From positions 1-27,217 of the IMG/VR virus record IMGVR_UViG_3300022856_000028: a stretch of DNA of 27,217 nucleotides, one strand, 5' to 3'. Origin of the DNA: a virus. Under the pieces are notes generated by a model. It ran no database searches. It was not told where the DNA came from and worked only from the letters and a program-made list of their open reading frames with translations. A program made the position numbers and the translations under genes. How positions within the stretch are numbered: the first letter of the stretch is position 1; each line of letters starts with the position of its first letter. Below are positions 48 to 15,624 of the stretch, piece after piece.

Positions 48-428
48 ATGGCGACACGGGGGCGAAAGCCTATGCCGACGGAATTGCGTGTTGTTGGTGG
101 TAATGCTGGCAAGCGGGCGCTACCTGTTGACGAGCCGATGACTGATGGTGTCCCGGTCTCCCCAAAGAAATTGAAAAAGCGCGAGGGCGAACTGTGGGAA
201 CAATTTATTGCCTCTGCTTTTTGGCTGACTGAGCACGATAGCCCGAAAGCGTTTATGTGGGTTTGTCTTCACGCGGAATTTGAAAAATCGCCATCTAAAA
301 TGATTGCCGGGCGCATTGCTCAATTGCGGGCGCTTGGTTCGGAGCTTGGACTGGACCCGGCGTCACGGAGTCGATTGGGTGGTAATGGCAAAGACAAAAA
401 AGAAAAAGACCCCTACTTCGACGACTGA
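48..428 (+). CDS. terS: Terminase small subunit (P27 family)
   Basis: This is the DNA-recognition subunit of the packaging motor; it binds the phage DNA and hands it to the large terminase. The 126-residue product has the P27-family look. Its N-terminus reads RGRKPMPTELRVVGGNAGKR, a basic stretch typical of that family, and its C-terminal part contains ALGSELGLDPASRSRL, the usual conserved end. The ATG at 48 is preceded by an AAGGAA Shine-Dalgarno around 33-38. The gene overlaps the large terminase start by 44 nt, the normal P27 arrangement. At 126 residues it is a little short for the family but looks complete. The assignment rests on recognised motifs, not on a search. Confidence 0.9.
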   Translation: MATRGRKPMPTELRVVGGNAGKRALPVDEPMTDGVPVSPKKLKKREGELWEQFIASAFWLTEHDSPKAFMWVCLHAEFEKSPSKMIAGRIAQLRALGSELGLDPASRSRLGGNGKDKKEKDPYFDD

Positions 429-2163
429 CCCGGTAACGCAATATGCGAAAGATGTTGCCTCTGGAAATAAGATTGCTGGTCCCCATGTTCGCGGGGCTTG
501 CGAGCGGCACCTGAGAGACTTGAAGGAAGGCCCTAAGCGCGGGTTATTCTGGGATATTAAAAAAGCAAACCATGTAATCAATTTTTTCCGTGAAAAGCTG
601 TTTGTCGATAAAGTTGCTGGCGATGTTTCCGAAGGTGACATGAAGCCGTTTGAGTTAATCGACTGGCAGGCGTTTATTGTTGGTTCTTTATTTGGATGGA
701 AGGCTCCGGACGGGTTCAGGCGCTTCCGGATGGCGTTTATAGAAACGGGAAAAGGTAGCGGGAAATCGCCGATTGCTGGGGGCGTGGGCATTTACATGCT
801 GACGGCTGATGGCGAACACCGGGCAGAGGTTTACGCTGCGGCGCAAAAAAAGGACCAGGCCAAGGTTTTGTTTCGTGATGCCGTGGCGATGGTTGAACAA
901 TCGCCGGACTTAGATAAGCGCCTGCACATGAGCGGGGGCTTTGAAAAGAATAATATCGCCTATTTGCGGAAGGGTTCTTTTTTCCGGCCTATCTCGACTG
1001 AGGACAGAGGCCGGGGGCAATCAGGCCCTAGACCTCACTGCGGCTTGCTTGACGAGATCCACGAACACTCGACGAATGCTATGGTTGAGATGATGCGGGC
1101 CGGTACGAAGGGCCGCAACCAAGCGTTAATATTTATGATCACCAATAGCGGGACTGATCGCACATCGGTCTGTTATGACTATCACGAATATGGCGCAAAG
1201 GTTTGTTCCGGGACACTGGAAGACGATAGTTTCTTTTCGTATATTTGTGCGCTTGATGAAGGTGACGACCCGTTCAAGGATGAGACGTGTTGGGCCAAAG
1301 CAAACCCTTCATTGAACACCACGATCACCGACAAATATTTACGGGAGCAGGTTATTCAGGCGCGGGGCATGCCGTCAAAACAGAACTTGGTTCTGCGGTT
1401 GAACTTTTGCGTTTGGACAGATGCGGAATCAACGTGGATTGGCAAAGAGATTTGGGACGCCTGCGAGGTTGAGCCGGATCGCGAACGTCTAAGTGGCAGG
1501 CAAGCATTTGGCGGACTTGATCTGTCCGGCAAAAAAGATTTAACAGCGCTTGCCGTTGCATTTGAGCCTGATGAAAACGGTGTTATTGACGCCTTCGTTG
1601 ATTTGTGGACGCCGGGAGACACGGTTCAGGAGCGGGTTGAAACTGATCGCGTACCTTATGATTTTTGGGTTCGCGATGGCTATTTGCATGCACCGCCCGG
1701 CAAGACGATTGATTATACATTTGTGGCCCGCCGGATTGGCGAGGTTGCGGCAGAGTTTGATTTAACAGAAATCGGGTATGACCGACATCGGATTGATTAT
1801 CTGATCGATGAAATGGACGCCGAGGGCGTTGACTGCTGGAATGGCGGCGACGAAGACGGCGGGACCGGGATCAAACTTACCCCCCACGGTCAAGGGTTCG
1901 TCGATATGGGCTTGGCGGTCGAGGCTGCTGAGGAAGTTATTTTAAACGGCAAGTTGCGCGTCTGGATTAACCCAGTTTTGCGCTGGAATGTTGCGTCAAC
2001 CGTTTTGGATGAAGACGCAGCCGGAAACCGGAAGCCAAATAAACGAAAAGCGACGGGCCGCATTGACGGGCTTGTAGCGTTGATCATGGCAATTCGCCTG
2101 GCTTCGGAAAATGCTGAAAACAGCGGTTCATCCATTTACGAACAAGATGAAATTTTTGTATAA
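385..2163 (+). CDS. terL: Terminase large subunit (ATPase and nuclease)
   Basis: This is the packaging motor, which pumps DNA into the procapsid through the portal and cuts it. The 592-residue product has a Walker A-like motif ETGKGSGKS near residues 120-128 and a Walker B-like CGLLDEIHEH near 219-228, with the usual TEDRGRGQSGPRP segment between. The C-terminal nuclease half starts with FGGLDLSGKKDLTAL, where the aspartate is a likely metal ligand, followed by the YDRHRIDYLIDEMD segment. The layout fits the Terminase_1 (YmfN/HK97-like) group. I chose the ATG at 385, which begins MAKTKKKK, over an in-frame TTG at 304 because the earlier start would add 27 atypical residues overlapping the small subunit. 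The portal gene follows after 12 nt. Confidence 0.93.
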   Translation: MAKTKKKKTPTSTTDPVTQYAKDVASGNKIAGPHVRGACERHLRDLKEGPKRGLFWDIKKANHVINFFREKLFVDKVAGDVSEGDMKPFELIDWQAFIVGSLFGWKAPDGFRRFRMAFIETGKGSGKSPIAGGVGIYMLTADGEHRAEVYAAAQKKDQAKVLFRDAVAMVEQSPDLDKRLHMSGGFEKNNIAYLRKGSFFRPISTEDRGRGQSGPRPHCGLLDEIHEHSTNAMVEMMRAGTKGRNQALIFMITNSGTDRTSVCYDYHEYGAKVCSGTLEDDSFFSYICALDEGDDPFKDETCWAKANPSLNTTITDKYLREQVIQARGMPSKQNLVLRLNFCVWTDAESTWIGKEIWDACEVEPDRERLSGRQAFGGLDLSGKKDLTALAVAFEPDENGVIDAFVDLWTPGDTVQERVETDRVPYDFWVRDGYLHAPPGKTIDYTFVARRIGEVAAEFDLTEIGYDRHRIDYLIDEMDAEGVDCWNGGDEDGGTGIKLTPHGQGFVDMGLAVEAAEEVILNGKLRVWINPVLRWNVASTVLDEDAAGNRKPNKRKATGRIDGLVALIMAIRLASENAENSGSSIYEQDEIFV

Positions 2164-2175
2164 GCGGGGCGATGC

Positions 2176-3720
2176 ATGGGCATTATGAAAAGCGCTGTTG
2201 CCGCCGTTTACAACGCTAGCGGAAAGTTTCTTTCGCAATCCGGGACGCCGAATTCAGGTGATGATTTCTGGTACAATCCCGTGGGGATGGACAACCATTC
2301 TGGTGTGAGAATAACGCCGGATATCGCTCTGAAGGCTTCTGCGGTTTATGCATGCGTTAAGGTGCTGGCGGAAACAATGGGGTCTCTCCCCCTGCGGATG
2401 TACCGCGAATTGCCGGGTGGCGGACGTGAAGAGGCGTCAAACCACCCGCTTGACGAGTTGCTCCGGTTCCAGCCTAACCAGACACAAACGGCTGTTGATT
2501 TCTGGGAAATGATGATGCTCCATGCCGCGTTGCGCGGTGGTGCCTATGCGGAGATTATACCCGGTGCGCGGGGCGCTGTTGACCAGTTATTGCCGTTGCA
2601 TACGGACAGAGTAACACCGGAGCGAATGCGGGACGGCTCGTTGCGGTTTAAGGTGGCTGATCCGAGAAACGGCATGACGCGGGTTTTGCTGCAAGAGGAA
2701 GTCTTTCGTGTTCCGGGTCTTTCGTCTGACGGCATTAGCGGGTTGCGGGCTATTGATCTGGCATCTGAGGATATCGGGCTTGGCATGGCGGCGGACGCTT
2801 ATGCGTCACGGGTATTTTCGAACAAACTGAATATTGGCGGCTTTCTGATCCACCCAAAAACGCTGTCGAACGAGGCGCAGAAGGGCCTTGTTCAAGCTCT
2901 GATGGAGCGGTTTGCGGGCATCAACAATACCCACCGCCCGATTGTCTTGCAGGAAGGCATGAAGTTTGAGCGGGCGATGATGGACGCCAAAGACGCGCAA
3001 TTGTTGGAAGCGCGGAAATGGCAAACCATTCTTGTCGCTCAACGGTTTCGTGTTCCGTTGCACATGCTTTCGATTGACGACCAAACCAACCGGTCAACGG
3101 TTGAGGCGCAAGCAATTGATTTTGTTAAATACACGCTACGTCCTTGGGTAAAGAGGATAGAGCAGGCAATTCGCCGTGACTTGATTGTTGCCAAAGGCAC
3201 ATACGTCGCCAAATTTAATTTGGAGGGGTTGCTTCGTGGCGATAGCGCGGCGCGGGCAAATTATTTCGGGGCGGCTTTGGGGTCTTCTGGCCGGGCGGCA
3301 TGGATGACGCCAAACGAGGTCCGGGCTATTGAGGGGATGAATCCGAGCGACGATCCCCGCGCTAATTTGCTGGGGGGCATGGCTGAGTCATCGCCTGCAA
3401 ATATGGCCGTTACTGACAATACACCTAACGGACGGGCCGACAGGTTGATCAGAAAAGAAGTTGCGGCAATTCGCAAATCATCTATGCGGCTGGCTGATAA
3501 CCCTGACGGATTCCGTCAATGGGTAACGGCTTTTTATGGCGGTCATTGTTCCTTTGTCATGGAGACGCTGGATATCCCGAAAGATGCTGCGCGGGTTTAC
3601 TGCGATTTTCAGCGCGACGAATGCCTGGCTGCAAACAACATTGAAACCATGCTGACCCGTTGGGAAGAAGATAAAGCGGCAGAGATTGCTGCGACACTGG
3701 AGAAACGAAATGAGCAATAA
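2176..3720 (+). CDS. Portal protein (HK97 type)
   Basis: The portal is the dodecameric ring at the head vertex through which DNA enters and leaves, and it docks both the terminase and the connector. The 514-residue product carries the HK97-family hallmark near its N-terminus, KASAVYACVKVLAETMGSLP followed by an LRMYREL stretch. Other recognised parts are HPLDELLRFQPN and the later FRVPLHMLSIDDQTNRSTVEAQ segment. It starts at ATG 2176, 12 nt after the large terminase stop; the Shine-Dalgarno is weak (GGGGCGA), and an in-frame ATG at 2185 is possible. The 3' end overlaps the protease start by 11 nt, so the two are probably translationally coupled. The length is slightly above the roughly 400-450 residues common in this family, through a C-terminal extension of about 100 residues of unknown role. 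Confidence 0.93.
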   Translation: MGIMKSAVAAVYNASGKFLSQSGTPNSGDDFWYNPVGMDNHSGVRITPDIALKASAVYACVKVLAETMGSLPLRMYRELPGGGREEASNHPLDELLRFQPNQTQTAVDFWEMMMLHAALRGGAYAEIIPGARGAVDQLLPLHTDRVTPERMRDGSLRFKVADPRNGMTRVLLQEEVFRVPGLSSDGISGLRAIDLASEDIGLGMAADAYASRVFSNKLNIGGFLIHPKTLSNEAQKGLVQALMERFAGINNTHRPIVLQEGMKFERAMMDAKDAQLLEARKWQTILVAQRFRVPLHMLSIDDQTNRSTVEAQAIDFVKYTLRPWVKRIEQAIRRDLIVAKGTYVAKFNLEGLLRGDSAARANYFGAALGSSGRAAWMTPNEVRAIEGMNPSDDPRANLLGGMAESSPANMAVTDNTPNGRADRLIRKEVAAIRKSSMRLADNPDGFRQWVTAFYGGHCSFVMETLDIPKDAARVYCDFQRDECLAANNIETMLTRWEEDKAAEIAATLEKRNEQ

Positions 3721-5002
3721 AATCGGGAATATGCGCCGGGAACTGCGCAATAGCGTGGGCCGTCCTGTTGCCTATCAGATTCGCGAGGGCTTGGGGGCAT
3801 CCTTGGTGCCTGTTCTTGAGCGGGTTATGCGCGGGGATAAGGTTCTGGACGGTGAGTTTTACGGGGCCGTTGTTGACGACGCGCCGGAGAAATCAGCCAC
3901 GCGCGATGCGATTGCCAAACAACTTGCCGGGCCGATGATTATTCCGGCTGGAAAGGGCGGAAAGTCAACCGCACTGGTTTCGATGCGCGGCATGGCAATG
4001 TACGATGTTGAATATCAGCCGATGGCGTTTTCAACACTGCTCCTTTCGCAGACAATGGCCGCGCTTGGTGCTGATCCTGACATTGGCCTGATCATTCTAC
4101 ATATCGATAGCCCAGGTGGCGTTGTTACCGGAACGAAAGAGGCGGCGGATGCCGTTTATAAGGCGCGACAGTCAAAGCCAGTTGTCGCGCTAGTCAATCC
4201 TTTGTGTGCGTCGGCCGCATACTGGATCGCCTCACAAGCGTCTGAAATTGTCGCGGTTCCGTCCGCTGATGTTGGTTCGGTCGGCGTGTTTATGATGCAC
4301 GCCGAATGCTCAAAGATGCTGGAAATGGACGGTGTGAAGCCGACCTTCATTTTTGCCAAAGACAGCCCCTATAAGATTGAGGGTAATTCGTTTGAGCCAT
4401 TGAGCGAGGAAGCTGAAGAGTATTTTCAGGGCGAGGTAGACGCGATCATGACTGAGTTTGTCAAAGCCATCTCACGCGGGCGCGGAGTGCCTGTCTCCAA
4501 GGTTCTCGCTGATTTTGGCAAGGGCCGGACAATGCTTGCTCCTGCTGCAAAAACTGCTGGCATGGTTGATCGTTGCGCGCCGCTTGGGCAGGCGTTGGGC
4601 CGATGGGGTATTGGCGGCGGGGTTGCTGAGGTCCGGCAGCGTCGCGGCGAAGATGATACGCCGGATGCTAATGCTGTTGCAGGGTATTCTATCACTATCG
4701 GCGCTGGCGGCGCTGGCGGCGCAGGAGAATCAGCGGATGCTTGGGCCGATATGCTGGCGGGGGCTGAGTTTGGCGACCATACGGATATTGAGACGCCAGA
4801 AGAGGTTGTAGCATGGGTCGATGCACAAGATGGCGGTGAAGAATTGGCCGCTGATATTGACGATGTTGCGGATGTGTCGGAAGAAGGCGCTCGCGATGTT
4901 GGCGCTAATGAAACTGCAAACGATGATGACAATGCGGACGATGAACGCACCGCACAAATCGACTCAGCAAACCGGCGGCTCGCTGTAAAGCGCCGCGCCT
5001 AA
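3710..5002 (+). CDS. Head maturation protease, S49/ClpP-like, with acidic C-terminal tail
   Basis: This protease acts inside the procapsid to trim scaffold and capsid N-termini. The 430-residue product has the S49 (lambda gpC/SppA) signature: GLIILHIDSPGGVVTGTKEA near 126-145, then LCASAAYWIAS with the likely nucleophile Ser168, and YKIEGN with the likely general base Lys222. The serine-lysine spacing is close to that in lambda gpC. Residues beyond about 310 are rich in Asp, Glu, Ala and Gly and end in a basic NRRLAVKRRA tail, which looks like a built-in scaffolding domain. I chose ATG 3710, with GGAGA nine bases upstream, which overlaps the portal stop by 11 nt; an upstream in-frame start at 3686 lacks support. 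A terminator-like hairpin lies between it and the capsid gene. Confidence 0.88.
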   Translation: MSNKIGNMRRELRNSVGRPVAYQIREGLGASLVPVLERVMRGDKVLDGEFYGAVVDDAPEKSATRDAIAKQLAGPMIIPAGKGGKSTALVSMRGMAMYDVEYQPMAFSTLLLSQTMAALGADPDIGLIILHIDSPGGVVTGTKEAADAVYKARQSKPVVALVNPLCASAAYWIASQASEIVAVPSADVGSVGVFMMHAECSKMLEMDGVKPTFIFAKDSPYKIEGNSFEPLSEEAEEYFQGEVDAIMTEFVKAISRGRGVPVSKVLADFGKGRTMLAPAAKTAGMVDRCAPLGQALGRWGIGGGVAEVRQRRGEDDTPDANAVAGYSITIGAGGAGGAGESADAWADMLAGAEFGDHTDIETPEEVVAWVDAQDGGEELAADIDDVADVSEEGARDVGANETANDDDNADDERTAQIDSANRRLAVKRRA

Positions 5003-5076
5003 GCAAATTCACGGGTAGCGGCTCTGTTGAGACCGTGATCCCGACATAGTGCGGCACTGCCGCAAATTAAACCATA

Positions 5077-5101
5077 GGGCTCCCAATCGGGGGCCTTTTT
5101 T
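5077..5101 (+). terminator. Intrinsic terminator-like hairpin before the capsid gene
   Basis: The sequence GGCTCCC (5078-5084) can pair with GGGGGCC (5089-5095) around an AATC loop. This makes a 7-bp stem with one G-T pair, directly followed by six T residues at 5096-5101. This is a textbook Rho-independent terminator shape. It sits 14 nt upstream of the capsid start and immediately before that gene's GGAG ribosome-binding site, inside an otherwise continuous late operon. Late phage transcription would have to read through it, or it could act as an RNA-processing or stability element. Confidence 0.6.
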
Positions 5102-5115
5102 CGTGGAGAATTATT

Positions 5116-6600
5116 ATGAATACCAAAAAACTTTTTGCATGGGGTTTCGCTTTTGCGGCCTTGTGCCTCGTTGCCGTTGTGGGCGAGCCTGCTATGGCTG
5201 CACAAGCAATTCATTTGGATGCGCACAGCTATTTCAGTGAAGCTGCTGGCGCAGGTATGGCCCTTGCCGGACTTGGGCGCATCAAACTTTTGCGTGACAA
5301 AAAATCTGCTCTCTTGAAAGAGGCCGACGCCATCAATGTCAAGATCGACGATGGCGATGCATCGGAAGACGATGTTGCCCGCCTTGCCGCCATCACTGAT
5401 GACGGTGGTGACCTGGATCAGGCGAATGTTTCTATCAGTCGTGAAGAAAAGTTGATGGCGCAAAAGCGCAATATGGCGCCTGTTGTCGATATCAACGAAG
5501 ATACCGACGAAGAAATTGAAGCGAAAGCTCCTGCGCTGCCGAAAAAGGAAGCCGATGCTTTTTCCTCTTTTGGTGAACAGCTCCAGGCTGTTGCCCATGC
5601 CGGGATGAACAAAGGCGGCTCCTACGATAACCGACTTGTCTATCAGGCAGCGGCATCCGGTGCCAATGAGGCCGTACCTTCTGAGGGCGGGTTCCTGGTG
5701 CAGCAGGATTATTCAACAACCATGTTGGATTTGATGCACGAAATGGGCGAGGTCGTATCCCGCGTTCGTCGTATCCCGATTTCGGTTGGCAACGGCATTA
5801 AATTGCCCGCGATCGATGAAACCAGTCGCGCCAATGGCTCCCGCTTCGGTGGGGTCCAGGCCTATTGGGCCGACGAGGCCGGTACGGTGGCTGCAAGTAA
5901 GCCGAAGTTCCGCACCATGGAACTCAGCCTTGAAAAGCTGATGGCGGTTGGCTACGCAACTGAGGAATTGCTTGCTGACGCTCCGGCGCTTGAATCTGTT
6001 ATGACTTCGGCGTTCACCGAAGAACTGACGTTCAAAACGGAAGATGCAATTATCAATGGCACCGGCGCAGGCCAGCCGTTGGGCATCCTCAACTCCGGCG
6101 CAACGGTTTCTGTCTCGAAACAGTCCGGGCAGGCTGCTGCAACCATCGTCACGCAAAACATTCTGGATATGTGGGCTCGCACGCCAATTCGTTCGCGCCG
6201 CAATCTTGTATGGGTTGTCAATCAGGACATTGAGCCGCAACTGTTCGGCCTGACACTGGGTTCCGGTACTGCGGTTGTCTTGCTGTATACGCCTCCTGGT
6301 GTGAACGGCAACAACTCCCCGTATGGCCTGTTGATGGGCCGTCCGGTTATTCCGATTGAATATGCGGCAACGCTCGGAACGGTTGGCGACATGATCCTGT
6401 TTGATCCGATGTCATACGTCATGATCGACAAGAACGGGGTTAGCCAGGCATCCAGCATGCATCTGCGGTTCCTGTATGACGAAATGACTTTCCGGTTCAC
6501 ATACCGGGTCGATGGTCAACCTGTCTGGAATTCGCCGGTTACGCCGTACAAGGGGTCTAACACCATCTCCCCATACATCACTTTGGCGACACGGGCTTAA
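5116..6600 (+). CDS. Major capsid protein (HK97 fold) with signal-peptide-like N-terminus
   Basis: This is the main shell protein. The 494-residue product has an N-terminal region rich in charged and coiled-coil-like sequence (about 50-150), matching an HK97 delta (scaffold) domain. The shell domain follows, beginning near SEGGFLVQQDYSTTMLDLMH and containing the typical TEELLADAPALESV and IINGTGAGQPLGIL segments and a C-terminal FRFTYRVDGQPVWNSPVTPY end. ATG 5116 has a good GGAG site at 5104-5107. Unusually, residues 1-29 read as a Sec signal peptide: Lys-Lys, a hydrophobic core, then EPAMA before Ala29. An internal ATG at 5257 (residue 48, MALAGLGRIKLL) would give a conventional capsid start but has no clear ribosome-binding site. 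Cleavage by the upstream protease is expected between the delta and shell domains. Confidence 0.93.
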   Translation: MNTKKLFAWGFAFAALCLVAVVGEPAMAAQAIHLDAHSYFSEAAGAGMALAGLGRIKLLRDKKSALLKEADAINVKIDDGDASEDDVARLAAITDDGGDLDQANVSISREEKLMAQKRNMAPVVDINEDTDEEIEAKAPALPKKEADAFSSFGEQLQAVAHAGMNKGGSYDNRLVYQAAASGANEAVPSEGGFLVQQDYSTTMLDLMHEMGEVVSRVRRIPISVGNGIKLPAIDETSRANGSRFGGVQAYWADEAGTVAASKPKFRTMELSLEKLMAVGYATEELLADAPALESVMTSAFTEELTFKTEDAIINGTGAGQPLGILNSGATVSVSKQSGQAAATIVTQNILDMWARTPIRSRRNLVWVVNQDIEPQLFGLTLGSGTAVVLLYTPPGVNGNNSPYGLLMGRPVIPIEYAATLGTVGDMILFDPMSYVMIDKNGVSQASSMHLRFLYDEMTFRFTYRVDGQPVWNSPVTPYKGSNTISPYITLATRA

Positions 6601-6669: not shown

Positions 6670-7143
6670 ATGAAGGGCATTAACATTGCCGAAATGGGGC
6701 ACATCGTTAACGTGCTCCCTCCGGTTGATATCAACGGCGGTGCCAACGGTGACGTTTTCTCAATGGAAAACCACGGTCACGCCACCGTCATTGTGCAAGT
6801 TGGGGTATCGGCTGCGGCCTTTACCAAGATCATCGTGAATGAATGCACGTCACTTGCATCGGCAGGTGCGACCGCAATTGCATTCAACGCGTACAAAGAA
6901 GAAACGGCGGCGGGCGATACGCTCGGTTCCGCTGTTGCTGTTGCGGCGGCTGGCGTGACGCCATCTGCCAACAACAGCATCTTTTATGTGATTGAGATTG
7001 ATGCAAGCGCATTGTCGGACGGGTCTCATTTCGTTCAACTTAGTTTAACCAATGCGTCAGGCAACAGCGTTATTGCTTCGGCGGTCGCTGTGTTGAGTGG
7101 CAGCCGTTATGCACAAGATCAATCTGTAACAGCCATCGCCTAA
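6670..7143 (+). CDS. Putative head decoration/structural protein
   Basis: The 157-residue protein is rich in small residues (Ala, Val, Ser, Gly) and beta-forming stretches. It has no enzyme motifs, signal peptide or membrane segment. It begins with MKGINIAEMGHIVNVLPP and continues through NGDVFSMENHGHATVIVQVG, a pattern I associate with small phage structural proteins encoded just after the major capsid. Its position next to the capsid gene, a strong AAGGAAG ribosome-binding site and a terminator directly after it suggest high expression, as needed for a capsid decoration protein. No specific family name can be assigned from sequence alone. A tail or neck role is possible but less likely given the location. 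Confidence 0.6.
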   Translation: MKGINIAEMGHIVNVLPPVDINGGANGDVFSMENHGHATVIVQVGVSAAAFTKIIVNECTSLASAGATAIAFNAYKEETAAGDTLGSAVAVAAAGVTPSANNSIFYVIEIDASALSDGSHFVQLSLTNASGNSVIASAVAVLSGSRYAQDQSVTAIA

Positions 7144-7204: not shown

Positions 7205-7489
7205 ATGCAAGTCATTCAGTTAATCGGGCGTTATGCCGGACATCTTGTCGATATGCCTTATGCTGAGGCCCGGTCAAACATTGACAACGGAACGGCGGCC
7301 AAGCCCGGCGATACAATTCTGATGCCGGGTCTTGCCCTGTCGGATGAGGCAAAAGAAGCGATCCGAGATGCGGGCGGCGAGTCTGAACCGAAGAAGCCCG
7401 CCGCGAAAAGAGCGCATGCTGATGACGGAACGTTCAAAGCCGACAATCCCGCAACGCCGGGAGTTAACGAAGCCTACCGCAAGTCATAA
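7205..7489 (+). CDS. Small Ala/Lys-rich phage head-region protein
   Basis: The 94-residue product has two parts. Residues 1-45 form a compact segment (IGRYAGHLVDMPYAEARSNI). Residues 55-94 form a flexible Lys/Ala/Asp-rich tail ending in DDGTFKADNPATPGVNEAY. Very similar tails occur in short uncharacterised proteins encoded next to phage capsid genes, in the position that FI/head-completion proteins occupy in lambda. The ATG at 7205 has GGAGA just upstream, right after a terminator T run. There is no catalytic motif. It is the last head gene before the sugar cassette, which starts one base after its stop codon. The function is unknown; it may be a minor head or packaging accessory protein. Confidence 0.6.
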   Translation: MQVIQLIGRYAGHLVDMPYAEARSNIDNGTAAKPGDTILMPGLALSDEAKEAIRDAGGESEPKKPAAKRAHADDGTFKADNPATPGVNEAYRKS

Positions 7490-7490
7490 A

Positions 7491-8129
7491 ATGGGTCGCA
7501 AGGCATGGCCCGTTCCCGCTATGTGGTCGGGCGAGCCGTGTGTGATTGTTGGTGGCGGTCCTTCGCTGTCATTGAAACAAATCAATCATCTGGCGATGGC
7601 AAGGCTATCAAATAAATGCCGGGTCATCGCCGTAAACAATTCGATTTATCCATGCTGGTTTGCCGACTGGCTTCATGGGTGTGATTTCAAGTGGTGGAAC
7701 TGGCATAAAGAGGCGGCGCTTAAATTTACTGGCATCAAAACGACTTGCACAGAAACAACCCCGGCGATCTGGGCGCATTATATCGAGGTTGCGCCGGTTG
7801 GTGATGACGGATTGAGAACTGGGTTTGCTCCTGAACCACATATGGTTGAGGGCGGCGGCAACGGTGGCTATCAGGCTATCCAGTTGGCGGTGAAGGCGGG
7901 CAGTCCAAAAGTTTTGTTACTTGGTTTTGATATGCGGATTAGCGACGATCAGGCGCACTGGTTCGGAGATCACCCTGACCGGATAAGATCAAATTACGAG
8001 GGGACTATGTTGCCGAATTTTCCGGGCCTTGCCGTTGCGTTAAAAGAGCGTGGCGTTGAGTGTATAAATTGCAGTCCGGGAAGTGCGTTAACTGATTTCC
8101 CGATGGCAAGGATGGAGGATGTTCTATGA
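7491..8129 (+). CDS. MptE-like/DUF115-type Rossmann protein ('norphogenetic' type)
   Basis: The 212-residue cytosolic protein opens with CVIVGGGPSLSLKQINHL, a glycine-rich nucleotide-binding loop. It continues with VIAVNNSIYPCWFADWLHGCD, then GGNGGYQAIQLAVKAGSPKV and LLLGFDM, ending with an HWFGDHP segment. This set of motifs matches phage proteins often labelled norphogenetic protein or 6-hydroxymethylpterin diphosphokinase MptE-like. Relatives of DUF115 occur in bacterial glycosylation loci, for example flagellin modification. I chose ATG 7491 (MGRKAW), one base past the previous stop, rather than an upstream in-frame start at 7332 that overlaps the previous gene heavily. Its stop overlaps the start of a small membrane peptide (ATGA). 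A role in making or transferring a sugar is inferred from the neighbouring genes; the substrate is unknown. Confidence 0.7.
   Translation: MGRKAWPVPAMWSGEPCVIVGGGPSLSLKQINHLAMARLSNKCRVIAVNNSIYPCWFADWLHGCDFKWWNWHKEAALKFTGIKTTCTETTPAIWAHYIEVAPVGDDGLRTGFAPEPHMVEGGGNGGYQAIQLAVKAGSPKVLLLGFDMRISDDQAHWFGDHPDRIRSNYEGTMLPNFPGLAVALKERGVECINCSPGSALTDFPMARMEDVL
8114..8118 (+). promoter_or_regulatory. Strong ribosome-binding site for the 26-residue peptide
   Basis: GGAGG at 8114-8118 lies 7 nt before the ATG at 8126. It is one of the best Shine-Dalgarno sequences in the cassette, supporting translation of the very short gene that follows. Confidence 0.6.
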
Positions 8130-8206
8130 TTTTTATTTTTTTCTGGATGGTCGTGACTGTTGTTGTGGCTTTCTTCATCGTCAATTTTTTGTCGCCACAT
8201 AAATGA
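8126..8206 (+). CDS. 26-residue single-span membrane peptide
   Basis: This short gene encodes 26 residues: a start MIFIFFW, an unbroken Val/Ile/Phe core with no charged residue for more than 20 positions, and a short polar end SPHK. It reads as one transmembrane helix. Support for its being real is positional. It has a strong GGAGG site 7 nt upstream, its ATG overlaps the previous stop as ATGA (8126-8129), and its TGA overlaps the next gene's ATG (8203-8206). It therefore fills exactly the gap between two cassette genes. It may anchor or recruit the cytosolic sugar enzymes to the membrane, or simply serve translational coupling. No known family is recognised. Confidence 0.6.
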   Translation: MIFIFFWMVVTVVVAFFIVNFLSPHK

Positions 8207-8955
8207 TATCTTTCATTCACATCAGAGACGACACAAATGCCGGGGATATGGCGTCGGAGCCAAGCCAGTATTTTTACTCCACGGATTTTCCGGACAAGAA
8301 CGTCCTGAATTTTTCTTGCTCTGTCCCGGATGGCGTCACCGTTTACGGTGGGGGAACGATGGTTAATTGGCTGAATGCGAAACCGGCGTTGCCGGACGGG
8401 CCTCGAATAATCTGGGGTGCTGGATCGTCGCGTCATGGTGAAACTGAGCCGTGGCCCGATCCTGAAGGCTTCGCGCTGATCGGCACCCGCGAATGGTCGC
8501 CAGAACGCGAGGCCGCAGGTTTATATGCGCCGTGCGCGTCGTGCATGTCGCCGCTGTTTGACAAGGAGTATTCTGTTTCACGTGAAGCTGTAGCTTTCGT
8601 CAATGCGAATGACAGCATCCGGGGGCGGTATCCGGCGGCCTATAGGCTGGATATGCCGACGATGAATAATTCCGGTGGCATGGCTGAGATTCTGGAGTTC
8701 CTGGGTTCGGCTGAGGTTGTCCACACAAATAGCTATCACGGATGTTGGTTCGCTCTGTTGCTGGGGCGCAAGGTCGTTTGTTACCCCTATTCATCAAAGT
8801 TTTACGGCTTCAAATACCCGATCAATTACGCCGGATGTTCAGAAGATATTTCGGCCCTTTCATCAGGCGGTGCGTTTTCAGAAGCGTTAGATGAAAGCAG
8901 AGCATACACGACAATGTTTTTTGACCGCGTTATGGAGATTCTTGATGGACATTGA
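8203..8955 (+). CDS. Polysaccharide pyruvyl transferase family protein
   Basis: This family (PF04230, CsaB/WcaK-like) transfers pyruvate from phosphoenolpyruvate to sugars, making acidic ketals. The 250-residue product shows the family features in order: a GD-rich start NAGDMASEP (about 13-20), YGGGTM near 48-53, WGAGSS near 71-76, GTREWSPER near 94-102, and the C-terminal HTNSYHGCWFALLLGRKV (about 174-190), where the His is typical of the active-site region. It is shorter than the roughly 300-380 residues of most relatives, so it looks like a compact version. The start overlaps the preceding small peptide stop as ATGA, and its own 3' end overlaps the HNH gene by 11 nt. It lacks a signal or membrane span. 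Some family members do not use pyruvate, so the exact reaction is inferred. Confidence 0.8.
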   Translation: MISFIHIRDDTNAGDMASEPSQYFYSTDFPDKNVLNFSCSVPDGVTVYGGGTMVNWLNAKPALPDGPRIIWGAGSSRHGETEPWPDPEGFALIGTREWSPEREAAGLYAPCASCMSPLFDKEYSVSREAVAFVNANDSIRGRYPAAYRLDMPTMNNSGGMAEILEFLGSAEVVHTNSYHGCWFALLLGRKVVCYPYSSKFYGFKYPINYAGCSEDISALSSGGAFSEALDESRAYTTMFFDRVMEILDGH

Positions 8956-9544
8956 AGCGCCAGATTGGATGCCGATACGTGACTTTGAAGGCATTTACGA
9001 AGTGTCGTCTTTGGGGCAAATTCGAAGGATCGCTGGCGGTCGGGGCGCGAAAGTTGGCAGGATTTTAAAGCCCGGAGCCAATAAAAGGGACGAGGGGTAT
9101 TTGTTTGTGTTCCTGTACAGAGGAAACGTATCAACCCGGCGATATGTGCATCAAATCGTAACAGATTCATTTCATGGCCCGAGTCCGGTGGCGCACGAGG
9201 TGAATCACATCGATGGCAACAAGAAAAACTGTTGCGCGAGTAACCTTGAGTGGGTCACCAAGAAGGAAAACGCATTCCATGCTGTTAATGTTCTCAAGCG
9301 AGGAAACCGGGGAAAGACGGGGCGAAAAAATCATTTGTCTCGTAAGTATATAATCACATCTCCGTCTGGAGATGTAACGCGCATTCATGGGCTTAACGAG
9401 ACGTGCGCCCGCCTTGGGCTTGATACCGGGTCTATGACGCGGGTTGCCCAAGGGGACTATAGGCACCACAGGGGGTGGCTGTGCGCCTATGATGATGACA
9501 AGGCGGAGAACGCCAGTAAGGTGGGCAGGGAGGCGGCGGCTTGA
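8945..9544 (+). CDS. HNH homing endonuclease with NUMOD4 domain
   Basis: The 199-residue protein begins with a NUMOD4 DNA-binding motif (PDWMPIRDFEGIYEVSSLGQ, about 6-25). A central HNH_3 nuclease core follows: VHQIVTDSF near 68-76, then VNHIDGNKKNCCASNLEW at about 86-103, with His88 and Asn100 as likely active-site residues. It ends with a NUMOD1-like helical DNA-recognition repeat (about 138-178: GLNETCARLGLDTGSMTRVA). ATG 8945 has GGAG 7 nt before it and overlaps the pyruvyl transferase by 11 nt; its stop overlaps the next gene's TTG start (TTGA). Such free-standing endonucleases are selfish elements that promote their own spread among phages. Its seamless overlaps on both sides are unusual for a recent insertion. 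Confidence 0.9.
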   Translation: MDIEAPDWMPIRDFEGIYEVSSLGQIRRIAGGRGAKVGRILKPGANKRDEGYLFVFLYRGNVSTRRYVHQIVTDSFHGPSPVAHEVNHIDGNKKNCCASNLEWVTKKENAFHAVNVLKRGNRGKTGRKNHLSRKYIITSPSGDVTRIHGLNETCARLGLDTGSMTRVAQGDYRHHRGWLCAYDDDKAENASKVGREAAA

Positions 9545-10266
9545 GCGGTCACCGATCACCCGGTCTATCCGCCCTTGTCAGATTACGCGATGAGGAAACG
9601 TGGGTAAAACTGGCGCTGGAATCAATTACGTGGTTTGACGAAATCGTTATTGTGCTGAATTGCTGCACGGACCGGACGCCGGAAATAGTTGAGGACTTTC
9701 GAGCGCAATTTCCTAGTAAAGTGATTGTGGCGGATTATCCCTATACCATCCACCCTATGGGGCCGGGGCATGATGATTGCCCGACAGATAACCCGCATTC
9801 ATCGGCGGCGCTTTATAATTTTACGCAAGACCTTTCAACAAAAACCCATGTTTGCAAAATCGATGGCGACATGGTTTGCATGGATTGGCTCGGCGGTCGT
9901 GTTCGCCAGTTAATGGAAGACGGCCACCATCGGATTAAGATGTTCGGTACGGACATAGTAGGCGATGATTTAACGCATATCGGCAATCACCCACTTTGCC
10001 CGACTAACGGTGTTTATCAGGTGAACGGGACGCGCTACGAACAAGGACAAATGACGCAAAGTTTGCGGGGCGCGGCCCAACCGACAACGGAAATACACGA
10101 TTGTTTTTTGCATTTCAAATGGGCGCGAAATCCGTTTGAAGCGGCAACGGTTCAATGGCCTGAAAACTGGCAGGAGATACCCCATTTCCAGCGGATTGCA
10201 GAAAGGCGGATTCCGGTTGAGCCTTATACGGGCGAATATCCGGCATCTGTGAGGGCTTTAATGTGA
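9541..10266 (+). CDS. GT-A (GT2-like) glycosyltransferase
   Basis: The 241-residue protein has a GT-A-type nucleotide-sugar binding start: ALVRLRDEETWVKLALESI, then DEIVIVLNCCTDRTPEIVEDF near 33-53. The metal-binding DGD lies in CKIDGDMV (about 105-112). The C-terminal part includes an EIHDCFLHFKW stretch often seen in phage and bacterial glycosyltransferases. The predicted protein is soluble, without signal or membrane segments. The start is a TTG at 9541 with GGGAGG about eight nt upstream; it overlaps the previous stop as TTGA. Its own stop overlaps the next gene's GTG (GTGA). It probably transfers a sugar from a nucleotide donor; donor and acceptor cannot be read from the sequence. Confidence 0.8.
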   Translation: MSGHRSPGLSALVRLRDEETWVKLALESITWFDEIVIVLNCCTDRTPEIVEDFRAQFPSKVIVADYPYTIHPMGPGHDDCPTDNPHSSAALYNFTQDLSTKTHVCKIDGDMVCMDWLGGRVRQLMEDGHHRIKMFGTDIVGDDLTHIGNHPLCPTNGVYQVNGTRYEQGQMTQSLRGAAQPTTEIHDCFLHFKWARNPFEAATVQWPENWQEIPHFQRIAERRIPVEPYTGEYPASVRALM

Positions 10267-10841
10267 TTGATCCGATTGTTGGCGGTAGGCTTTCGCCGGA
10301 CGGGAAAATCAAGGACGTTCGCGGCGATCACGTTGCCCGCTATGAGTGGGCTGCTGGTCTTGTCTGCGGTCACGTCATTGATGCCGGATGTAATAGCGGG
10401 TACGGGTCGGCAATCCTTGCCGATGCCGGGTTGACGGTTACGGCAATTGATGTCTGGTCTGATGGCGTCGATTATGGCCGTAAAAACTGGAATAGGCCGG
10501 ACATAACTTGGATTGTTGACGATATTTCACAATGTGGATTTCTGTCTGCGGACGCGGTGGTCGCGTTTGAAGTTATCGAACATTTGGCGGACCCTGCGCC
10601 GTTTTTAACATCTGCAAAATCGGCAAAACGATTGTTTGTCAGCGTTCCAAATGAGTCGGTTTGGCCTTGGCAGCCCAGATATGCGCCGGTCCACCACAGG
10701 CACTATCGGAAAGAGGAATTCGGCGATTTGCTGGAATCCTGCGGATGGGGTGTTGTTGGCTGGTATGGGCAGGCGGGCGGTAGCTCGCCAGTTGAACCGA
10801 ATGTTAATGGCCGGACGTTGGTCGTGGAGTGTATATGCTAA
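10263..10841 (+). CDS. SAM-dependent methyltransferase
   Basis: The 192-residue class I methyltransferase has motif I VIDAGCNSGYGSAIL (about 38-52), an acidic ribose-binding Asp at AIDVW (about 61-65), and AFEVIEHLADP (about 101-111). The downstream HHRHYRKEEFGDLLESCGW segment is common in sugar and lipid methyltransferases of the Methyltransf_11/23 type. The start is GTG 10263, overlapping the previous stop (GTGA), and the 3' end overlaps the next gene by 7 nt. Sandwiched between glycosyltransferases, it most likely O-methylates a sugar of the product glycan; DNA or small-molecule methylation cannot be excluded. Confidence 0.82.
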   Translation: MIDPIVGGRLSPDGKIKDVRGDHVARYEWAAGLVCGHVIDAGCNSGYGSAILADAGLTVTAIDVWSDGVDYGRKNWNRPDITWIVDDISQCGFLSADAVVAFEVIEHLADPAPFLTSAKSAKRLFVSVPNESVWPWQPRYAPVHHRHYRKEEFGDLLESCGWGVVGWYGQAGGSSPVEPNVNGRTLVVECIC

Positions 10842-11533
10842 CAATCGTTTGTTTTCAGTGGATTGATCCCAATGGACGCCACAACCACTTATACAAATAT
10901 GATGCTGAATATGTGAATAAATTGGCGTCGATGTTACGGCGGCATTTGCATATCCCTTATGAACTGGTTTGTGTGACAGATACGCCGGAAGGAATTGAAG
11001 ACAGCATTCGCACGATGCCGACGCCGGTTGATGTCAGGGACTGGCCCGGTCATATGCGCCGGTTGGTGATGTTCCGGCCTGATGCCGCTGAGTTGTTTGG
11101 CGAGCGAATTTTGTTAATTGATCTGGATTGCGTCATTCTGCGCGATATCACGCCGCTGGTTGACCGATCCGAGGATTTTGTATCTTGGGAGCCGCGTTTG
11201 TTTTACGCCCTCAACGGCAAATACAGCCGCTATAACACCGGTTTCATGTTGTTCGATGCCGGGGCAAGGCCGCAAGTCTGGTCTGAACTGACGATTGAGC
11301 GGGCGCAACGGGAATTATCTGTAAAGCATGAGGGCGTTGTAGACGAGCAAAGCTGGATTAGTCACATCCTTGGCCCTGATGAAACGGTATGGCCCTGGAA
11401 CGGCGACGTTGTTTCGGTCAAAGCGGTGCCAAGGCCAAATTTAGCGAGAATGGTATTTTTCAATGGCCCGCGTTCGCCGGGGATGCCTACCATGCAACAA
11501 GAATTCCCGTGGATTAAGGAAAACTGGCTTTGA
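10835..11533 (+). CDS. GT-A glycosyltransferase (GT8-like)
   Basis: The 232-residue product starts MLTIVCFQWIDPNG and has LLIDLDCVILRDI near 93-105. That holds a DxD metal/nucleotide-sugar motif (Asp96, Asp98), as in GT8-type enzymes. NTGFMLFDAG (about 134-143) is a further typical GT-A element, and the tail has VFFNGPRSPG, similar to the HF/YNG-type end of GT8 relatives. There is no membrane span. ATG 10835 was chosen over GTG 10829 because GGAG at 10826-10829 is placed for the ATG, though the spacing is short. The gene overlaps the methyltransferase stop by 7 nt and runs into the next gene through TGATG. The sugar donor is unknown. Confidence 0.75.
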   Translation: MLTIVCFQWIDPNGRHNHLYKYDAEYVNKLASMLRRHLHIPYELVCVTDTPEGIEDSIRTMPTPVDVRDWPGHMRRLVMFRPDAAELFGERILLIDLDCVILRDITPLVDRSEDFVSWEPRLFYALNGKYSRYNTGFMLFDAGARPQVWSELTIERAQRELSVKHEGVVDEQSWISHILGPDETVWPWNGDVVSVKAVPRPNLARMVFFNGPRSPGMPTMQQEFPWIKENWL

Positions 11534-12333
11534 TGGATATTGTTGTCTACCGATCAGGGACGCCGTGGGCAACCCCGATTGAGGCGGCGACAATTGACGG
11601 TTTTAAGGTGCATGGTCTTGACGTTGAGGTAAGGCCGAAAGGTGACTGGCGAAAATCTGACGTTGCCGTTGTCTGGGGTCATCGTGACACGGTTCTGCAC
11701 GATATTCAGAAGGATAATCACTATCTGGTTTTGGAGCGCGGGCATCTACATCCCCGGCGCACCTATACGGCCATGAGCTGGGACGGATTAGGGCGGCGCG
11801 GTCGGTATCCGAAAGCGCCAAACGGCGACCGATGGAATAATCTATTTGCTGGCTACATGAAGTCGTGGAAATCAGGTGGTTCTCATGTTGTCATTTTCGG
11901 GCAAGTGCTTGGCGACGCGTCGTTGGTTGGCGTTGATTTTCATGCATGGGTTTCTGATGCGGTTTGTTCGGCAAGGGTCTATGGATTACCGGTTATCTTT
12001 CGACCACATCCGCGCAGTGCGGGGCTTGGTGACAATTGGCGTCCTGATGGATGCGAGGTTTCTGCATGTTCGCTGGAATCGGATCTGGACCGGGCGGCGG
12101 TGGCGATAACGTATAATTCAACGTCCGGGGTTGAGGCGGTTCTGGCGGGCGTTCCTACGGTCTGTTGCGATCCGGGCGCTATGGCTTGGCCTGTTGCCGG
12201 TCACGATATCGGAAAGACGATAACGCCGTACCGTACCGAATGGGCGCACGATCTGGCTTATACAAATTGGACACTTGATGAAATTGCAGACGGCACGGCA
12301 TGGGCTGCAGAACGAACTGTAATAAAGGATTGA
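11533..12333 (+). CDS. GT-B-like glycosyltransferase (capsule-synthase/KpsS-like)
   Basis: The 266-residue protein has an N-terminal alpha/beta half (MDIVVYRSGTPWATPIEAA) and a central VVIFGQVLGDASL. The GT-B C-terminal pattern follows: LPVIFRPHPRSAGLGDNW, then AAVAITYNSTSGVEAVLAGV and PTVCCDPGAMAW. The RPHP plus S-x-G-V-EA-x-L-x-GVP layout resembles capsule polysaccharide transferases and polysaccharide-biosynthesis GT-Bs. ATG 11533 overlaps the previous stop by one base (TGATG); an in-frame TTG at 11530 would add one residue. It is the last member of the overlapping sugar cassette. It could add a further sugar to the same glycan, but donor and acceptor are unknown. Confidence 0.7.
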   Translation: MDIVVYRSGTPWATPIEAATIDGFKVHGLDVEVRPKGDWRKSDVAVVWGHRDTVLHDIQKDNHYLVLERGHLHPRRTYTAMSWDGLGRRGRYPKAPNGDRWNNLFAGYMKSWKSGGSHVVIFGQVLGDASLVGVDFHAWVSDAVCSARVYGLPVIFRPHPRSAGLGDNWRPDGCEVSACSLESDLDRAAVAITYNSTSGVEAVLAGVPTVCCDPGAMAWPVAGHDIGKTITPYRTEWAHDLAYTNWTLDEIADGTAWAAERTVIKD

Positions 12334-12639
12334 ATGATGCAAAAAGAGCAACCAACAGTATTGACGCCAATGCAAAAATTGAAAGCTATCGGGTTTCGGT
12401 TTTACCAAGGAGATACTCAGGAAAACGCATGGGTTCCTAAAACTGGCGATCTATACACGACAAGCCGTGCCGATCTTGAATTGTACCGTATTGTCGAAGT
12501 TAAAGACGATAAGGTTTACACAGAATATTGCACTAATCCGGGTGTGCTCACTGATTGGCCTATCGATGAATTTACATCAATGAAGACATTTGGTGCTAAT
12601 CGGGTACGCGTACCTGATTGGTGCTTTGATACAGAATAG
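12334..12639 (+). CDS. Hypothetical protein, AT-rich accessory gene
   Basis: This 101-residue protein is not recognised. It is mixed in charge and rich in aromatic residues. It has no membrane segment or catalytic motif; the central VPKTGDLYTTSRADLELYRI VEV-type stretch looks like a small beta-barrel (SH3-like) fold. The start is either of two adjacent in-frame ATGs (12334 or 12337) after AAAGGA at 12324-12329. My hand count over 12361-12600 gives about 42% GC (100 of 240), clearly below the sampled neighbours (57% over 12661-12720), which suggests separate acquisition. It lies directly after the sugar cassette and before the connector gene, so it may belong to the same imported block. Confidence 0.5.
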   Translation: MMQKEQPTVLTPMQKLKAIGFRFYQGDTQENAWVPKTGDLYTTSRADLELYRIVEVKDDKVYTEYCTNPGVLTDWPIDEFTSMKTFGANRVRVPDWCFDTE

Positions 12640-12648
12640 GGCCGTAAC

Positions 12649-13269
12649 GTGTCACTAACACTGGTAACAGCCCCGACCGTTAACCCGGTGACAAATGCCG
12701 AGGTCTATGAACATCTGCGGGTGCCGCTGACGGGATCGCCAGCGGCACCGGTTGATGAGTCGCATATCACGGCATTGATCTCTGCTGCTGTTGGTTATGT
12801 TGACGCCAAAAACGGTGTATTAGGCAGAGCACTGGTCACGCAAACCTGGGACATGAAACTGGATCGGTTTCCCGCTGTAATTTGCGTTCCATTGCCTCCG
12901 TTACAGTCGGTTACATCGATCACTTACGTTGACAGCAATGGCGACAGCCAAACGCTTTCGTCATTGCTTTACACGGTCGATACCAGCACAGAACCAGCCC
13001 GGATTATCCCGGCATATAACGAATCATGGCCGTCAACACGCGGGCATATTGATGATGTAACAATCCGGTTTGTCGCTGGGTACGCGGGTGATGGTGCCAG
13101 CCCCGAAGATTTGCGGGCGAACGTGCCATTCAACATCAAGGCGGGGATAAAGGTTCTGGTTAACGAACTGTATCAGAATCGCGGTGACTCTGCTGTTGGC
13201 GCATCGGTGGAAAAATTACCTTTTGATGTCATGGCGCTGTTAGCGCCGTTCCGGGTTATGGAGTTTTAA
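12649..13269 (+). CDS. Head-tail connector protein (gp6/phiE125 gp8-like)
   Basis: The 206-residue protein matches phage head-tail connector (adaptor) proteins that dock under the portal. The N-terminal part LVTAPTVNPVTNAEVYEHLR is a helical opening with LISAAVGYVDAKNGVLGRAL. It is followed by PLPPLQSVTSITYVDSNGD, an RIIPAYNESWPSTRG segment, VTIRFVAGYAGD and the usual end NIKAGIKVLVNELYQNRGD. That order is the standard one for this family. It starts at GTG 12649, nine nt after the previous stop, with only weak Shine-Dalgarno support. It restores the normal head-to-tail gene order after the sugar cassette. Confidence 0.88.
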   Translation: MSLTLVTAPTVNPVTNAEVYEHLRVPLTGSPAAPVDESHITALISAAVGYVDAKNGVLGRALVTQTWDMKLDRFPAVICVPLPPLQSVTSITYVDSNGDSQTLSSLLYTVDTSTEPARIIPAYNESWPSTRGHIDDVTIRFVAGYAGDGASPEDLRANVPFNIKAGIKVLVNELYQNRGDSAVGASVEKLPFDVMALLAPFRVMEF

Positions 13270-14233: not shown

Positions 14234-14443
14234 ATGGCGCTGTATTTTGTTCATGCTGGCGAGGGGTCAATTCTGGTTCGCGCCATAAACGGCCACCGGG
14301 CATTGGAAATTACCGGCGGCGCGTCTGTCGTGCGAATCCTTGAAGGTGGTCCAGAAGGCGCTATTGGCCCGGACGGAAATGTTCAAGATATTGTCGTTGC
14401 TGACGATCCAGAAGAAGTTGAAACAGAAAACGCCGAAGATTAA
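14234..14443 (+). CDS. Small hypothetical protein
   Basis: The 69-residue product is mostly beta-like (ALYFVHAGEGSILVRAINGH) with an acidic tail ending EEVETENAED. It has no recognised family, signal or membrane segment. It starts two nt after the tail-completion stop and ends convergently with the metalloprotease gene: the two stop codons overlap in TTAA at 14440-14443. It may be a small tail or neck component, or a remnant at the edge of the inserted protease gene. Confidence 0.5.
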   Translation: MALYFVHAGEGSILVRAINGHRALEITGGASVVRILEGGPEGAIGPDGNVQDIVVADDPEEVETENAED

Positions 14444-15480
14444 TTTTCGCGGTCGTCTGGCTCGATAGGTTTGCCTGTTGCTTTTTTCGTTTGTATTTCC
14501 TCAACGGTTTGTTCGATAGCAAGGAATCTTTTGGCTGACGAGGGGTGAGTAGACCCGGCAAGGTGGATGGCTTGCGGGTGTGCGGCACCCATACGTCGCC
14601 ATAGCTTGGCGGACTCTTTAACATCGTACCCGGCCCGTGCGGCGAAATAAACGCCCACATAGTCGGCCTCTGATTCAAAGTCCTGGCTACCAATGCCAGC
14701 GCCTAAATTCATTCCGGCCTGCATCATGTTTTGGCCGGTGAGTAGCGTAAGCCCAATCCCTGCAAGGCCGCCAAGAAAGGTGTTCCCGGCCTTCATCGCT
14801 GTATGAGATTCGGTGTTGTGTGCGAGTTCGTGACCGATAATCAGGGCTAGTTCGTCATCGGTTTCGACAAACCTTAGCATGCCGGTTGTTATGGTGATCG
14901 ATGAGCCATCGGCAAAGGCGTTCACGGCATCGTCCGTTGCGATGGCAATCGGGTAATCGCAGATGGTGTCCGTTTTGACAATAAGGGGTATTTTCATACC
15001 ATTTCTATCGATGACCATGGATAATGGGCCTGTCGCGGATTGGATAGCATTTTTCAGAAATTCTGCGCCTTTCTGATCGTCCGGCACGGGCTGTTCATTA
15101 ATTGAAGTGATGGTATCGCCAATTTTTAGCCCCGATTTGTGGACGGGAAACTCCCGATGAATGAAGCCAACTTTCAAGCGGCTTCCGGTACCGGTTACCG
15201 TTTTTACGGCAGACTTGTAATCCTTCGGCCACAGCCCGGCGTTGGTTGCGTTGATGCCAAGCGCTTGTGTAACGGTATCGCCACACCGTTCGGCACCCGC
15301 CCGCAGGATTGCCTGGCCAACTTGTAGGACTCTGTTTTGACGTTTGAGCGTTTGCTCAATGACCAGCTCACGTTGTTTTTCGGCTTCTTTGCCTGCTGCG
15401 GCATCGCTGATGGTTGGAAAGCGTGATGCAGGGGTACAAGCCATAACGAACAGCAAAGATAAACTGATCAGTCGAAACAT
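14440..15480 (-). CDS. M48 metalloprotease lipoprotein with PDZ domain (moron)
   Basis: This 346-residue protein is the only minus-strand gene. Its N-terminus (MFRLISLSLLFVMAC) is a short signal with a lipobox-like VMAC, so it is probably a lipoprotein anchored facing the periplasm. A PDZ-like domain spans about 97-165 (FPVHKSGLKIGDTITSINEQ). The M48 protease core has HELAH at about 217-221 and the third zinc ligand Glu271 in the SEADYVG motif. This architecture resembles periplasmic BepA/Oma1-type quality-control proteases. I chose ATG 15480 over GTG 15489: AAAGG lies 8 nt before the ATG but abuts the GTG. Standing alone against the late operon, it looks like a moron that changes the lysogen's envelope. 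Its substrate is unknown. Confidence 0.85.
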   Translation of the reverse strand: MFRLISLSLLFVMACTPASRFPTISDAAAGKEAEKQRELVIEQTLKRQNRVLQVGQAILRAGAERCGDTVTQALGINATNAGLWPKDYKSAVKTVTGTGSRLKVGFIHREFPVHKSGLKIGDTITSINEQPVPDDQKGAEFLKNAIQSATGPLSMVIDRNGMKIPLIVKTDTICDYPIAIATDDAVNAFADGSSITITTGMLRFVETDDELALIIGHELAHNTESHTAMKAGNTFLGGLAGIGLTLLTGQNMMQAGMNLGAGIGSQDFESEADYVGVYFAARAGYDVKESAKLWRRMGAAHPQAIHLAGSTHPSSAKRFLAIEQTVEEIQTKKATGKPIEPDDREN

Positions 15481-15624
15481 ATTTTTCACCTTTCAATCAA
15501 GGCGAGTACCCTAAACGATTTTTACTTAATTCGCTACTGCGGATTGAAACCGCCCTTACCGTGCCTTGGGCAAGCGCATCACCAACGTCGGATGACGTGA
15601 GAATTACTTTGAAGGAGCCCTATC
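15481..15624. promoter_or_regulatory. Divergent spacer between M48 protease and tail tube
   Basis: This 144-bp gap separates the minus-strand protease from the plus-strand tail genes. It is the only divergent junction in the window and so the natural place for promoters in both directions. It is AT-rich near the protease side (around 15514-15532). It holds an inverted repeat ACGTC-GGAT-GACGT at 15585-15598 that could be an operator or a small hairpin. No convincing -35/-10 pair was found on either strand. The tail tube AAGGAG ribosome-binding site is at about 15612-15617. Confidence 0.35.
15489..15493 (-). promoter_or_regulatory. Ribosome-binding site that decides the M48 protease start
   Basis: On the minus strand AAAGG (15493 down to 15489) lies 8 nt before the ATG at 15480, the ideal spacing. 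It directly overlaps the alternative GTG at 15489, which therefore cannot use it. Confidence 0.55.

Follow-up and report, generated by a model that had tools for sequence, protein, structure and literature searches.

What would a phage do with a run of sugar-modifying genes set into the middle of its head operon? The question is raised by IMG/VR virus record IMGVR_UViG_3300022856_000028, a linear virus record of 27,217 bp that was analysed over its whole length (the window), with flanking genes assigned using PHROGs and the genes of the cassette using Pfam and PHROGs. The cassette consists of eight genes on one strand (forward; 7491-12333), flanked by the capsid block on one side and the head-tail adaptor gene on the other. 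All seven junctions within the run overlap, five by 4 nt and the other two by 11 nt and 13 nt. Upstream (48-6600) lie terS, terL and the genes for portal, protease and an HK97-type major capsid protein (MCP), and downstream, from 12649, those for the head-tail adaptor, head closure, tail terminator, major tail protein (MTP), tape measure protein (TMP), Dit and J. The initial annotation of this DNA had described eight same-strand genes with start/stop overlaps between the capsid genes and the connector, and both the gene calls and the PHROGs flanks agree. It had also read them as placing a glycan on the virion, an interpretation that holds in the form of a predicted head-operon glycan cassette with pyruvyl-transferase-family and methyltransferase members, most probably for virion proteins. 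Specifically, we consider it reasonably probable that the cassette adds sugars to a virion protein step by step in the cytosol, with acidic or methyl caps. The initial annotation further proposed that the glycan would shield the particle from antibodies, receptors or nucleases, a role that is hypothetical.

The families of the encoded enzymes point in this direction. The first gene (7491..8129) encodes a DUF115/MptE-like, GT42/Maf-like glycosyltransferase (GT) that matches PF01973 at 35.1 bits (cut-off 34.6), as do 21 of 21 aligned members at E <= 0.1, and that matches phrog_4603 'alpha-2,3-sialyltransferase' at E 4.5e-34, a phrog name derived from remote clustering. When the 21-member profile was compared with structures it matched CstII (E 0.004) and, weakly, Maf 5mu5 (E 0.1) and the MptE-type 8sd5 (E 0.75). 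The name 'MptE-like' is thus a Pfam label only, the nearest match of the profile being CstII, a GT42 sialyltransferase, followed by Maf. Because DUF115 genes also occur beside capsid genes with no other annotated GTs, this enzyme is the probable first transferase of the pathway. GTA1 (9541..10266) is a predicted GT2-type glycosyltransferase with a conserved DGD motif that matches CgtA (PF06306, 1.3e-5); its profile, built from 15 members, hits GmaR at E 2.3e-9 and SunS weakly, and both of these are protein glycosyltransferases. It is followed by a putative tailoring enzyme, a SAM (S-adenosylmethionine) methyltransferase (10263..10841; Methyltransf_11, E 9.7e-11), and by GTA2 (10829..11533), a GT8/glycogenin-like glycosyltransferase with a conserved DLD motif (phrog_1962 glycosyltransferase, 1.4e-14) whose profile weakly matches the Skp1 galactosyltransferase 6mw5 and glycogenin. 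The last gene, GTB (11530..12333), encodes a predicted GT-B glycosyltransferase resembling KpsC and Capsule_synth proteins (profile against KpsC 6mgd, E 0.0055); GTB has no strong single match, and of its 15 homologues 11 match DUF6716 'putative glycosyltransferase' and two match Capsule_synth. Taken together, the profiles of the relatives suggest enzymes that act on protein or glycan.

The most unusual member of the cassette is PyrT (8203..8955; 250 aa), which by its sequence belongs to the polysaccharide pyruvyl transferase family PF04230 (33.2 bits, cut-off 25.3), the sole family matched at E <= 0.1 in eight of its nine homologues. An AF2 (AlphaFold2) model built from nine sequences (pLDDT 82) has a GT-B-like fold; it superseded a poor model from three sequences (pLDDT 55). 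The nine-sequence model aligns with WbbZ 6x1l over 187 residues (Z 11.8, 17% identity) and has Pvg1p among its best Foldseek matches, and other GT-B glycosyltransferases and 2-epimerases score equal to or above WbbZ. The WbbZ, CsaB and Pvg1p papers describe as conserved or as part of the phosphoenolpyruvate (PEP) site an NxGD motif, an Arg, a His and a Lys, as well as Arg337 of Pvg1p. In PyrT, N12, G14 and D15 of NxGD, R96, H179 and K199 are invariant in all nine homologues, and the spacing of 20 between H179 and K199 is that of CsaB. PyrT resembles these ketal-pyruvyltransferases in family, in fold and in these motif and PEP-site residues, though not at the Arg337 position (see below), and pyruvyl transfer is its likely, predicted activity.

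Does the arrangement recur? When 2.9 million viral contigs were searched with PyrT and GTA1 alignments and the matches were annotated against the window, PyrT was found in nine further non-redundant contigs (L002, L003, L015, L022, L024, L025, L026, L027 and L028). All carry the order DUF115-PyrT-GTA1-GTA2-GTB between the MCP and adaptor genes, L002 without GTA2; the cassettes of L015 and L027 end at contig ends. Some of these contigs are near-alike (e.g. L025/L028), and the independent events are therefore fewer than nine. The same order and place are shared by phages whose MCPs are only ~36-70% identical to that of the window, which argues that the arrangement is not due to chance. Every close GTA1 relative with phage structural genes visible beside it belongs to a cassette located between MCP and adaptor. 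The initial annotation had asked whether the same gene set recurs beside phage capsid genes or has homologues in host polysaccharide loci only. The neighbourhood search answers in favour of recurrence: every close PyrT relative recovered lies in a phage head operon, and just one close GTA1 relative came from a cellular polysaccharide locus. Beyond this set, distant GTA1 relatives (L035, L038-L041) occur in other contexts. PyrT gave no tblastn match in 50,697 phage records, and peptide patterns, which reach near relatives only, gave no confirmed match in 84,980 genomes; among 385 genomes belonging to one class, searched with a profile, there was one cellular relative, 27% identical.

The methyltransferase gene precedes GTA2 in the window but follows it in L003, L024 and L026. 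DUF115 and GTA1 occur without PyrT in seven contigs (L030, L032, L034, L036, L037, L042 and L043), sulfotransferases are encoded in L022, L027, L034, L036, L037 and L042, and other methyltransferases are also found among the relatives. Within the L022 cassette (L022:11107-12477), a PseF/KdsB-like (CMP-sugar-synthetase-like) cytidylyltransferase is fused to an RraA/aldolase-like domain. As judged from gene content, a core of DUF115, GTA1 and GTB is retained, and the predicted pyruvyl, methyl and sulfo caps are swapped. With a constant core and exchangeable caps among the relatives, variation seems to fall on the particle's outer chemistry. The cassette as a whole is an optional module, because two relatives are free of it: L008 has the MCP, a protein like the 157-aa protein described below and the adaptor with nothing in between, and in L050, which is a fragment lying within a bacterial genome, the MCP adjoins the adaptor. 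Host polysaccharide loci are a possible source of the enzymes, since a GTA1 relative (51% identical) in a Rhodospirillales metagenome-assembled genome (MAG) shares its locus with genes for an ABC transporter and an epimerase and with a PF04230 gene.

Under virion glycosylation, a short glycan would be built directly on a virion protein during particle assembly, most likely on the capsid or an adjacent small protein. The candidate acceptors are the HK97-type MCP (5116..6600; phrog_10 major head protein, E 9.6e-42) and a conserved 157-aa protein encoded after it (6670..7143), a possible decoration protein that is found with 67-81% identity at the same position in L003, L004, L005 and L024. The first sugar would be transferred to protein from host nucleotide sugars by a soluble enzyme, either the DUF115/GT42-Maf-like protein or the GmaR/SunS-like GTA1. 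GTA2 and the KpsC-like GTB would extend the glycan, and the methyltransferase and PyrT would add the caps; provided that PyrT is an active pyruvyltransferase, its cap would be an acidic ketal derived from PEP. Overlaps at the junctions could couple translation of the cassette genes. A more specific version is tentative: the GT core would put a glycan containing a keto-deoxy sugar (CMP-Kdo or nonulosonate type) on the capsid, and the charge and recognition of the particle would be set by interchangeable pyruvyl, methyl or sulfo caps.

Several observations weigh against virion glycosylation with such caps. The counterpart of the PEP-binding Arg337/Arg306 is Ser177 in all nine PyrT homologues, and for this reason pyruvyl transfer by PyrT, and with it the pyruvyl cap, is uncertain. 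In L044, a cellular member of PF04230 likewise has Ser at the Arg337 position. PyrT also differs from WbbZ, Pvg1p and CsaB in being short and in carrying RxxS/T instead of RxxxS/T. The assignments of GTA2 and GTB depend on weak profile matches to PDB entries, PyrT being the only enzyme with a folded model, and the virion glycan itself is a prediction from gene content. A Ser/Thr-rich tail was sought in the MCP, the 157-aa protein (g6670) and the MTP and none was obvious; such a C-terminal tail as the acceptor is unsupported by these sequences. Position in a head operon is a sign of late co-expression and does not point to a substrate. Finally, a phage-encoded pyruvyltransferase, WbbZ-Cv, is known to modify the O antigen of the host (PMC10629545).

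That last precedent bears on the main rival, in which the cassette alters a host surface polysaccharide, for receptor masking or superinfection exclusion, in the manner of serotype conversion. PF04230, Capsule_synth and CgtA are mainly host-polysaccharide families, a GTA1 relative sits in the Rhodospirillales locus described above, and one phage relative, the L032 record, carries an integrase. The cassette, however, lies in a late head operon and not in a lysogenic-conversion position, and its slot between MCP and adaptor is constant across many phages. No integrase was found in the window or in the L003, L022, L024, L025 and L028 records, which are possibly fragments. The initial annotation had reported no flippase and no GtrA/GtrB pattern, and this is borne out: GtrA (PF04138) gave no match in the window and nine related records, none of the cassette enzymes has a transmembrane (TM)-like segment, and the cassette contains neither the GtrA flippase nor the polytopic membrane GT of a GtrABC serotype-conversion module. 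It does resemble the Corndog type, with several soluble GTs and a tailoring gene on the same strand within a structural operon. We regard modification of the host surface as unlikely.

The sugars could also be placed specifically on tail fibre or other host-recognition proteins, or on the tail tube, tuning adsorption and sparing the head. A related gene set adjoins a tail gene in CcrColossus, glycosylation of mycobacteriophage tail tubes has been reported in the secondary accounts cited below, and Ser/Thr content reaches 19% in J and 25% in the MTP of the window. In related phages, on the other hand, the cassette sits on the head side of the operon, from MCP to adaptor, and a purely tail-directed role seems to us improbable. 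Still harder to sustain is glycosylation of modified phage DNA bases. GTs of DNA-hypermodifying phages do exist, as cited in PMC12619734, but the window yielded no gene for base modification, the solved structures most similar to GTA1 and DUF115 are of enzymes with protein or glycan substrates, and the genes lie in the head operon; we give this very little credence.

Glycosylation of the virion remains the preferred reading, and published systems offer partial parallels. Transfer of sugars to flagellin by Maf and GmaR is cytosolic and requires no lipid carrier. The DUF115 profile shows a weak similarity to Maf, and that of GTA1 matches GmaR; the window differs in encoding a multi-enzyme chain with predicted caps, and its acceptor is only a candidate. 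Maf O-glycosylates Ser/Thr of flagellin with nonulosonic acids, and can also use Kdo, according to the abstract of PMC11339370. In Corndog, an O-methyltransferase and GTs lie between portal and protease, in a different slot from the MCP/adaptor position seen here, and capsid modification was proposed by its authors (PMC4351075). Capsid and tail-tube glycosylation by phage GTs was reported by Freeman 2023, as described in PMC11256854, PMC12363180 and PMC12619734. The mycobacteriophages Corndog and Che8 share with the window phage GTs and an O-methyltransferase, set inside the structural operon in Corndog; in contrast to the window, the descriptions in these papers mention no DUF115/GT42-like, pyruvyl-transferase, sulfotransferase or KpsC-like gene. 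Among 50,697 phage records, DUF115 was found in 73, all below 60% identity. Pseudomonas phage phi_D3 has a DUF115 gene (phrog_4603) between MCP and head-tail adaptor, as in the window, but no other annotated glycosyltransferase was seen within 11.5 kb. Tetraselmis viridis virus S20 (NC_020840) has a full cassette in the corresponding place, with two DUF115 genes, GTs (among them a GTA2 35% identical to that of the window) and a methyltransferase between capsid block and head closure; no PyrT was found there, and its genes were deposited as hypothetical or GT. Mimivirus fibril glycan clusters contain GTs and methyl- and putative pyruvyl-transferase genes that decorate the particle (PMC9614988); unlike the window phage, this is a eukaryotic virus with sugar-nucleotide pathways of its own. 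The literature searched described no pyruvyl transferase in a phage head operon. The novelty suggested initially therefore holds for PyrT in this position and extends to a fixed core with variable caps; structural-operon virion glycosylation was already known, and WbbZ-Cv, the giant-virus fibril clusters and structural-operon cassettes are published.

Not every gene of the run belongs to the pathway. The families listed by the initial annotation hold, except that the HNH gene between PyrT and GTA1 (8945..9544) encodes a NUMOD4/HNH homing endonuclease (HNH_3 2e-15, NUMOD4 3e-8) and no glycan enzyme. It appears to be a selfish insert, a parasite of the locus outside the glycan pathway, and L003 has no HNH gene. 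At the same PyrT/GTA1 junction, L025 carries an unrelated NUMOD3 gene (L025:7096-7998). The sole TM-like segment of the cassette is that of a 26-aa peptide (8126..8206) with 4-nt overlaps on both sides. In the relatives, the interval from DUF115 to PyrT was checked for a comparable small TM peptide and none was found, L003 having no space there, and conserved status for this peptide was rejected. The cassette enzymes (GC 0.50-0.54, against 0.53 for the whole window) show no compositional sign of recent foreign origin. Just ahead of the cassette is a gene for a 94-aa protein of unknown function (7205..7489; phrog_26939, E 2e-4); behind it, before the adaptor gene (12649..13269; phrog_442, E 2.3e-18), a 101-aa gene (12334-12639) with no family match has GC 0.42 and third-position GC (GC3) 0.37, below its neighbours. 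An M48 peptidase gene with a PDZ-like region and a lipoprotein-like N-terminus (14440-15489) lies on the reverse strand amid forward-strand tail genes. Among the relatives, L024 has a reverse-strand 286-aa open reading frame (ORF) and a DnaJ-domain gene between DUF115 and PyrT (L024:5678-7192), and ORFs of 682-824 aa stand between GTB and adaptor in L025 and L028 (L025:12780-15254, L028:12780-14828), the L025 ORF having no Pfam match.

Capsid chemistry affects the stability, adsorption and recognition of phage particles in general. If the cassette does glycosylate the virion, it would represent a dedicated head-operon pathway for acidic, chemically variable phage glycan coats beyond the mycobacteriophages, in which caps are exchanged and the core stays constant. 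It would also explain the widespread phrog_4603 'alpha-2,3-sialyltransferase' genes next to phage capsid genes, an explanation that is open to test, and would provide a source of enzymes for cytosolic protein glycosylation. Should the tentative modular-cap version be correct as well, bacteriophages would have their own equivalent of sialylated or sulfated coats.

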